Assembly (NCBI GenBank): GCA_017545505.1
Contig: JAFWNB010000004.1
Location: forward strand, 62,001 to 126,000
Reading direction: 5' to 3'
Length of the DNA stretch: 64,000 nucleotides
From: Candidatus Saccharimonadota bacterium
GTDB taxonomy: Bacteria; Patescibacteriota; Saccharimonadia; Saccharimonadales; Saccharimonadaceae
The position numbers and the translations under genes are program-made. Shown here one piece after another: positions 18,524 to 59,369 of this stretch (positions within the stretch are counted from its first letter, which is position 1; each line of letters opens with the position of its first letter). Under the pieces are notes generated by a model, which made no database searches, had not been told where the DNA came from, and worked only from the letters and a program-made list of their open reading frames with translations.

Positions 18524-18537
18524 TCATGTTTATGCTA

Positions 18538-18575
18538 ACAAAAATCCCTCATAGTGAGGGATTTTTGTTTTTGCG
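18538..18575. terminator. Bidirectional intrinsic terminator
   Basis: A 14-bp perfect stem (ACAAAAATCCCTCA/TGAGGGATTTTTGT, loop TAG) with T-runs on both strands. It ends the adhesin gene on the minus strand and insulates the capsule promoter. Confidence 0.85.
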
Positions 18576-24117: not shown

Positions 24118-24136
24118 CGATAAGCGCTTTCAGAGA

Positions 24137-24170
24137 ACAAAAAATAACCCCGAAGGGTTATTTTTTGTTT
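24137..24170. terminator. Terminator at the end of the ribosomal protein operon
   Basis: Perfect stem AAAAATAACCC/GGGTTATTTTT with a CGAA loop and T-runs on both strands, lying 12 nt past the rpsH stop. Confidence 0.85.
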
Positions 24171-53064: not shown

Positions 53065-53739
53065 TTATATAGCTTCAGAAATCGAAAATATTGGCGAAAT
53101 ATGTTCGTCAATATTTTTGATTTTGGCGACCGTTTTTAGTTTATTAGTCAGAATTAAACGCATAGCTTTAATCTCGTTTGCAGTAATTAAACCATTTTCT
53201 TTTTCTTTCAAGGATTTTTCGTAATAATCCCATTCGTATTTTTTTGTTGGCTCTAATCTATTTCCTTCTATATCACGGTATAAATTAATTTCTTCTCCTG
53301 AAGATTTTTTTATATTAAAGTTTATCCAGGTTTTAATTAAATTCAAATTTGTATTATCATTCAAGGCCTCCATAGATTGATCAACGATATCGTAATATTC
53401 CGGGTTATCGGAACTGTCTGATAACTGATTGATTTTTTTAAGAATAGATGTTGCGAGCTCGGTGCGAGAATAATCTTTAATAATATTGCCGAAGTATTTA
53501 ATCATTTTTGCACCCGTAATAACGCCTAGTTCCCCTTTGCCACGATGAATATTAAAATCAATTCGTGTTAGCATCTCTATGCTACCGGCAAGTTTAGACT
53601 TTTCTTTTCGTACTCCTTTCGCAATTGCGGACACTTTACCATTCGGAGTAATAATATTCAAAATACGGTCGGCTTCGCCATAATTCGTGCGACGCAAAAC
53701 ATAGCCCATAGTCCTAACATCATGCGTAATTTCTGACAT
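53065..53739 (-). CDS. recO: DNA repair protein RecO
   Basis: 224 aa. N-terminal OB fold (GYVLRRTNYGEADRILNIIT, GKVSAIAKGVRKEKSKLAGS), then the helical C-terminal domain; the Cys zinc site present in some RecO proteins is absent. Loads RecA on SSB-coated DNA. It overlaps the response regulator gene by 20 nt, so recO is the third gene of a two-component operon; its stop directly abuts the convergent ppa. Confidence 0.85.
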   Translation of the reverse strand: MSEITHDVRTMGYVLRRTNYGEADRILNIITPNGKVSAIAKGVRKEKSKLAGSIEMLTRIDFNIHRGKGELGVITGAKMIKYFGNIIKDYSRTELATSILKKINQLSDSSDNPEYYDIVDQSMEALNDNTNLNLIKTWINFNIKKSSGEEINLYRDIEGNRLEPTKKYEWDYYEKSLKEKENGLITANEIKAMRLILTNKLKTVAKIKNIDEHISPIFSISEAI

Positions 53740-58229: not shown

Positions 58230-59369
58230 TTACTTTTTCCTTAATATTATTATATCTCTCGCGACGATTTGATCTTCTCGATGATAAAGAAGCCCCTCGC
58301 GCGATTTATTATCAACATTATACCCCATATTTTGAATTTCGTCAATAATATCTAGCCGTTCATACTCTCTATTTTCGCGCAGCCAAGCTGGCGCCGCCAC
58401 GACAACTGGTGTATTCGGCTTGATTTGTTCGGCAAGATTTTTTAAAAAGCCTTTGATGATCGTGCCGCATTCTTGTTTTTGCTCTTTTAATTCTATTTCG
58501 GAGGGAATTTTTGCAAATGGCTTACCAAGATAGCCCTCACAAGCTACGGCGTCAATGGGTTTAGTCCATTTAAATGATACTGCGTCACCTTGCGCTAATT
58601 CAAAAGGCATATTTTCGGGGCCGGGTCCCTCACGCCCGTCTTCACGGGGTTCGGGCCCTAATTCTCGGCAGCAGCCTCCGAAATGCCCCGAAAACAGCCT
58701 TTCTGAATTAGCTATAAGCCATTTCAAATTCTTTTCACTGTACTTAATCATTCTGTCGTTGATGTCGGTGCCGTAGGCGCGGTAGCCCATGAGCAAAGCT
58801 TCTTGCAAAACCACGCCGGTACCACAGAAAGGATCTAAAATGACTGAATCGGGTTTTAATGGGCCGCAGAGGTTAATTAGGATTTGAGCTAGCTTTGGTG
58901 GCAACATACCAACTTTAGCGTCACGAGCGGGACGCGCTTGGTCGCGTTTAGTATATGAATCAATATCTTGCACGCCAATTACTCTATACCATTCATCATC
59001 AACTTTTATTAACTCGACTTTGCGTGGATTTTTGCCATCTAGGCCGTTATGAAGTGATGTTGCGGTAGATAAAACGGCATCTTTGTTCTCTACTACGCGT
59101 ACAGAACGCTCATGGCGAACAAGAATTTTTTTGAGTTTCAAAGCCTCACTTGAAGCTGTTTTGCGGGATGCTTTTTTTGAATAATCGCTGACGCCGATAG
59201 TAATCTTGCCAGTTGGTAAATTTTGTAGAAATTCCAATGGTTTGATGGAAAGTTTTTCGGCAAGTTTAAGGACGCCACCAAGCCTATCAATATCAAGCGG
59301 GAAGTTTTGCGCTTCGAGCTCGGCAATTGATATTTCTGGTTGGCGTCCTAAAACTGCTAGATATTTCAC
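58230..59369 (-). CDS. Trm11-like RNA methyltransferase with an in-frame insertion
   Basis: 379 aa, GTG start. N-terminal substrate domain with a THUMP-like look (GKITIGVSDYSKKASRKTAS), then RDQARPARDAKVGMLPPKLA and a SAM fold: VILDPFCGTGVVLQEAL, YRAYGTDINDRMIKYSEKNL. The catalytic DPPYG motif of Trm11 reads CEGYLG here, so the reaction is uncertain (tRNA guanine-N2 methylation is the family expectation). Residues about 220-259 are encoded by a GC-rich hairpin insertion (58594-58712) rich in Gly, Glu and Arg, absent from the family pattern. TATAAT lies 6 nt before the GTG. rpmA follows directly. Confidence 0.78.
   Translation of the reverse strand: MKYLAVLGRQPEISIAELEAQNFPLDIDRLGGVLKLAEKLSIKPLEFLQNLPTGKITIGVSDYSKKASRKTASSEALKLKKILVRHERSVRVVENKDAVLSTATSLHNGLDGKNPRKVELIKVDDEWYRVIGVQDIDSYTKRDQARPARDAKVGMLPPKLAQILINLCGPLKPDSVILDPFCGTGVVLQEALLMGYRAYGTDINDRMIKYSEKNLKWLIANSERLFSGHFGGCCRELGPEPREDGREGPGPENMPFELAQGDAVSFKWTKPIDAVACEGYLGKPFAKIPSEIELKEQKQECGTIIKGFLKNLAEQIKPNTPVVVAAPAWLRENREYERLDIIDEIQNMGYNVDNKSREGLLYHREDQIVARDIIILRKK
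58594..58712. repeat. In-frame inverted-repeat insertion inside the Trm11-like gene
   Basis: Two 28-nt arms (58594-58621 and 58685-58712) are near-perfect inverted copies, differing by one indel-and-substitution cluster, around a 63-nt GC-rich core that folds into its own hairpins (CCCGT/ACGGG; TCGG/CCGA). The reading frame stays open through it. It resembles palindromic elements known to insert in coding genes of Rickettsia; homology to those is not claimed. Confidence 0.75.

Follow-up and report, generated by a model that had tools for sequence, protein, structure and literature searches.

Relationship to described palindromic repeats

Palindromic repeats lying in frame within protein-coding genes are best known from Rickettsia. 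The Rickettsia palindromic elements (RPE) are short palindromic repeats of ~150 bp, found in frame in unrelated genes, and their mover is unknown (PMC10969869). The palindrome described here, from a methyltransferase gene of Candidatus Saccharibacteria, resembles them in being dispersed and kept in frame in several unrelated genes, with 85 of 113 copies lying inside open reading frames; compared with RPE by description, it differs in that its arms follow the local host DNA and only its core is common to the copies, and it belongs to a different phylum. The other close parallel is with template-switch (quasipalindrome) mutations. Template switching creates and maintains stems and inverts spacers (PMC8794818, PMC8604942), and its products share with our element the local inverted copies, the homogenisation of arms and the inversion of the spacer (PMC8604942, PMC8794818). 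Palindromes of that origin have an arm that is an inverted copy of adjacent native DNA, and this is what is seen here, as indicated by the rpoD codons and by arms that diverge along with the flanks, both discussed below; template-switch mutations are only local, however, whereas here a core of ~80 nt is common to many loci and genomes. The preliminary description of this locus, made from its letters alone, had likened it to Rickettsia palindromic elements or to a template-switch event, and the insertion-free alleles, the in-frame retention, the local arms and the dispersed cores now support that likeness.

Two further systems are more distant. The coding palindromes of Nematomorpha mitochondria are also inverted repeats within functional protein genes, with both coding and pairing kept; they differ in being perfect repeats that reach 284 bp, with conserved residues encoded in the arms, and no shared core is reported in the part of the published account drawn on here (PMC6649704). 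REP/RAYT sequences are dispersed imperfect bacterial hairpins of 20-40 bp, some of them intragenic and many tied to Y1 transposases (PMC3733652). Our element is likewise a dispersed hairpin that is sometimes intragenic, but it is ~120 nt long, and no Y1 transposase to accompany it was found in this genome.

The element and its host gene

The window is the whole 64-kb stretch of DNA that was analysed; coordinates are given within it, and the host gene, the element and all of the element's parts are on its minus strand. The gene (58230-59369) encodes a 379 aa Trm11/TrmN-like tRNA methyltransferase, recognized from its open frame, a weak family match to UPF0020, a TIGR01177 match scoring below the cut-off, and best Foldseek matches to Trm11 and TrmN (6zxw, 3tma, 5e71). 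All 379 codons are open across the insert. In the structure model, the insert lies after the helix following "YGTD" and before the next beta strand; the helix extends to residue 225, the strand occupies residues 256-260, and most of residues 227-252 have pLDDT < 50, so that the insert is a predicted disordered loop.

The whole element, core plus arms, extends over 58591-58713, a 123-position match to model R1 (G000:C6:120591-120713). Its conserved core of 79 nt lies at 58613-58691, as defined by a core profile over 113 copies that refines the bounds of 58622-58684 first proposed. The arms (58594-58621 and 58685-58712) are 28 nt long, 82% complementary and 63 nt apart, and they are the longest inverted pair of such kind in the window. 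The 5' arm, in the orientation of both gene and element, is the one at 58685-58712 and encodes ANSERLFSG, while the outer half of the 3' arm at 58594-58621 encodes the conserved strand PFELA(QGDA). Both arms had been thought to encode native-looking protein; this stands for the 3' arm, which overlaps the conserved strand (F-x-V/I/L..GD), but the 5' arm lies in a variable linker. The 5' arm carries an extrahelical G at 58703 and the 3' arm an extrahelical T at 58609; these bulges are recurrent, with a G at 5'-arm position 12-13 from the core in most copies and a pyrimidine at 3'-arm position 4-5 in many. Within the core are two predicted apical hairpins, P2 at 58662-58683 (TTTCGGAGGCTGCTGCCGAGAA) and P3 at 58623-58658 (GGGCCCGAACCCCGTGAAGACGGGCGTGAGGGACCC). 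The gene strand has a folding energy of -73.2 kcal/mol, compared with -45.3 +/- 3.6 for dinucleotide shuffles (z -7.9), and 0 of 200 shuffles equalled it. The inverted arms first noted in the methyltransferase frame are real, and the unit proposed there holds with its bounds refined to an ~80-nt conserved core and ~20-nt arms.

Several other inverted pairs were seen in the window. A second one within the methyltransferase gene, near its start (59263-59355), has 20-nt arms, 85% complementary and 53 nt apart; the N-terminal region of the methyltransferase is another insertion hot spot in relatives. Near the 3' end of a recO-like ORF (53065-53739) is a core-less coding hairpin at 53079-53123, with 20-nt arms that are 90% complementary around a 5-nt loop; it looks similar to the hairpin alleles without a core at the methyltransferase site. 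Two hairpins, at 18537-18569 and 24136-24169, whose arms of about 15 nt match perfectly, stand well above shuffles and are perhaps terminators.

Distribution

Searching with the segment itself gave two further matches in the genome. A covariance model built from 82 aligned copies detected 11 copies in this Candidatus Saccharibacteria genome, 6-24 copies in each of the six genus genomes sampled, and copies in three of the four genomes sampled from one sister genus; in the order sample it was positive in 9 of 148 genomes, none of them beyond the genus and that one sister genus. The phylum sample gave one weak match outside the genus. A simpler DNA search detected one copy or more in 77 of 118 genus genomes. 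The genome sample contains one genome per species, mostly metagenome-assembled. Related cores, for which a search had been suggested at the outset, are thus present elsewhere in both the genome and the genus. Those orthologues of the gene that are named belong to uncultured Candidatus Saccharibacteria, in many cases from the gut of sheep, goat, buffalo and cattle, and the palindrome in the window is one copy of a dispersed, apparently non-autonomous element of a genus of mostly ruminant-gut Saccharibacteria. In the sister genus, at L159 and L161 (G252:C2 and G246:C4), copies are paired in inverted orientation within a span of about 300 bp, and the two related genomes have them at the same intergenic position.

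No match to the core was found in PLSDB (plasmids) or INPHARED (phages), nor any exact core 21-mer in the IMG/VR virus contigs, and a plasmid, phage or virus origin was dropped on these grounds. A known RNA family was also dropped as its identity, since four copy-bearing loci gave no Rfam family at gathering score and the window gene had sub-threshold matches only. No description of such repeats in Saccharibacteria was found in a literature search whose coverage was partial and is not proof of novelty.

Arms and local host DNA

Arm pairing continues for ~20 nt outward from the core, past which it is no better than background. RNAalifold, applied to the alignment, missed this stem because the arms have little sequence in common, and they were scored for pairing separately. 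A copy's own arms have a mean pairing score of 21.5, whereas arms exchanged among copies score 2.8, and own-arm pairing exceeds the 99th percentile in 74 of 93 copies. Where copies of the same core type share a site, identity is 92% in the core, 75 and 70% in the arms and 76% in the flanks, with core identity above flank identity in all 27 such pairs. Between different sites, arms are 50% identical even where the cores are >=95% identical, with a baseline of 42%; terminal inverted repeats shared by the copies, as in a MITE, are therefore not what is found.

The origin of the arms is clearest behind rpoD. In the sister genus (L182 of G447), the far arm is an inverted copy, with small gaps, of the end codons of RpoD (GAATATCTAAAATAAGTA), extending 13 nt into rpoD. 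Inverted rpoD end codons are also present in L180, L171 and L170, with shorter reaches in G461, G457 and G220, and relatives that have no insert behind rpoD have no such inverted copy. Conserved rpoD coding sequence in an arm cannot, on this comparison, have come with the element. The duplication seen at rpoD is inverted, not direct, with no close empty allele available for comparison. The original arm is identifiable only where coding constraint reveals it; the idea that the native arm has a fixed polarity agrees with the window and rpoD but does not clearly suit the opposite-orientation copies at the methyltransferase site, and was dropped for that reason. The arms, being made of local host DNA, bear out the early suggestion that the insertion carries an inverted copy of flanking sequence. 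We know of no described element with mirror arms made from local host DNA. At the level of sequence, these comparisons show that the spreading part is an ~80-nt core, borne on the end of a stem of ~20 bp in which both strands follow the host DNA of the locus and one repeats the other inverted.

Insertion-free alleles and turnover

Many orthologues of the methyltransferase have, at this same codon position, only a short linker and no insert, and in others the position is occupied by different repeat-family members, inserted in one orientation or the other; insertion-free alleles are common among the orthologues aligned, which do not all have the same segment. Cores in both orientations lie between similar arms at this one site. 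On a tree of 64 orthologues, core presence is hardly clustered and needs 18 parsimony changes, at least 10 of them forced by well-supported branches. The recurrent hot spots are the methyltransferase, ValS, UvrB and the region behind rpoD, the pattern being repeated in ValS (VDEE..YTTDNMGEDW) and UvrB (WxI..QLDFIRRLV). Judged from these alignments, insertions at the hot spots are shown to turn over fast. In two of the UvrB and ValS copies, L130 and L140, the apical loop of the core itself contains additional palindromic sequence.

Formation and spread of the element

The explanation that we moderately favor is a non-autonomous, RPE-like mobile core with a stem that is built from host DNA, probably by template switching during replication. 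Template switching would both make the stem and keep its strands paired: a new strand, having copied the core or a short local palindrome, would fold back and copy the adjacent flank for about two helical turns, and later switches could re-homogenise the arms and invert the core. The core itself may be carried by a trans-acting activity or by template switching between copies. Such a process would explain the local arms, the paired changes and the core inversion, but on its own template switching predicts neither the sharp arm length nor the fixed-position extrahelical bases, and leaves the movement of the core unexplained. Near-identical strains, which would reveal the order of events, showed no insertion difference in the genomes compared. 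It is conceivable, though we would not expect it, that a dedicated reaction with a reach of ~20 nt and fixed bulges instead builds the stem from the adjoining DNA and leaves an inverted target duplication.

Candidate movers were sought. The Y1 (HUH) transposase domain PF01797 was detected in 2 of 60 genus genomes, TnpB (PF07282) in 0 of 60 and the IS110 transposase (PF01548) in 2 of 60, none of the three being detected in this genome; IS200/IS605 (Y1), TnpB and IS110 were rejected as movers on that account, and neither an IS110 transposase nor a TnpB gene, as bridge-RNA or omegaRNA systems would have, is found here. A reverse transcriptase (RVT_1), as would mark a retroelement, is common in the genus (70 of 118 genomes) but was found neither in this genome with its 11 copies nor in G070 with its 15, assemblies that may be incomplete, and was also rejected. 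The RVT_1 genes reach up to five matches per genome in these 70 genomes of ~0.7 Mb.

A different possibility, which we regard as rather doubtful, is that an enzyme puts the core into the tip of a pre-existing host palindrome, the arms being the target and only later perfected. Core-less alleles of the methyltransferase site are palindromic in 6 of 25 cases (for example L229, L215 and L222), compared with 8 of 200 codon shuffles. The DNA encoding the protein motif N-L-K/E-W ... F-Q-V is itself near-complementary, and insertion into a hairpin tip would fit a core found in both orientations between similar arms. Against this, most core-less alleles, and the rpoD, ValS and UvrB sites where they have no core, lack a comparable palindrome, and 20-bp palindromes reaching into rpoD codons would not be expected beforehand. 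The core-less hairpins at the methyltransferase site could be targets, or they could be products or scars.

Predicted fold and apparent selection on the element strand

The GC-rich core of ~80 nt has self-complementary ends (TCGGGG...CCCCGA), and the element is predicted to fold into a Y-shaped three-way junction, two apical hairpins on a long basal stem. In the core hairpins, pairs are altered on both sides in up to 39 copies. Among arm mismatches, counted on the element strand, G.T occurs in 28 clusters and A.C in 8 (p 0.001). Copies antisense to the host gene show this bias most strongly (10 to 0), and sense copies only weakly (10 to 6). This statistical evidence points to a role for the fold that the element strand itself adopts, as RNA or single-stranded DNA, and selection appears to act on that fold rather than on arm sequence. 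The fixed extrahelical bases, the preference for G.T over A.C on the element strand, the weak arm consensus in intergenic copies and the paired changes in the core hairpins would also fit arms that arrived with the element and then diverged by compensatory changes under selection for an RNA or single-stranded DNA fold; we think this unlikely, since arms that match the conserved rpoD codons of their own locus already disfavor it and the arms have changed at the pace of the flank, whereas the core has stayed similar.

Reading frame

Copies were counted as lying in an ORF when the frame was longer than 200 codons with at least 20 codons on each side. The copies so placed are in frame, 50 of them sense and 35 antisense, and all six frames are used. 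Among the other copies, most of them intergenic, only 32 of 168 frames are stop-free and 81% hold a stop. The two sets of figures are not independent, since an open frame is itself what places a copy "in ORF". A copy that clearly breaks its frame was not seen. The in-frame insertion first noted at this locus is thus matched by in-frame retention of the other copies within ORFs. With the frame kept inside genes, the segment is presumably translated as a loop, and the simplest reading is that it is translated and kept as one. Removal from the mRNA or skipping in translation, as by a mini-intron or bypassing element, is highly improbable: a long stem that brings the flanks together and in-frame copies in essential genes such as ValS would suit it, but in-ORF copies keep their frame without stops, in contrast to the frames of intergenic copies, a constraint that removal would lift, and copies occur in both orientations. 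The intergenic copies showed no bias to the orientation of the downstream gene (8 right only, 6 left only).

Significance

With more than 100 copies, insertion-free alleles at the same codons and arms that record the site, the making of palindromes can here be studied from sequence. The element is also a natural test of template switching as both builder and keeper of long stems. Should an enzyme carry out the reaction, the result would be something new for a mobile element, a target duplication that is inverted and nearly constant in length. For these bacteria, with their genomes of ~0.7 Mb, the element is a steady source of new loops in essential proteins such as ValS and the tRNA methyltransferase.
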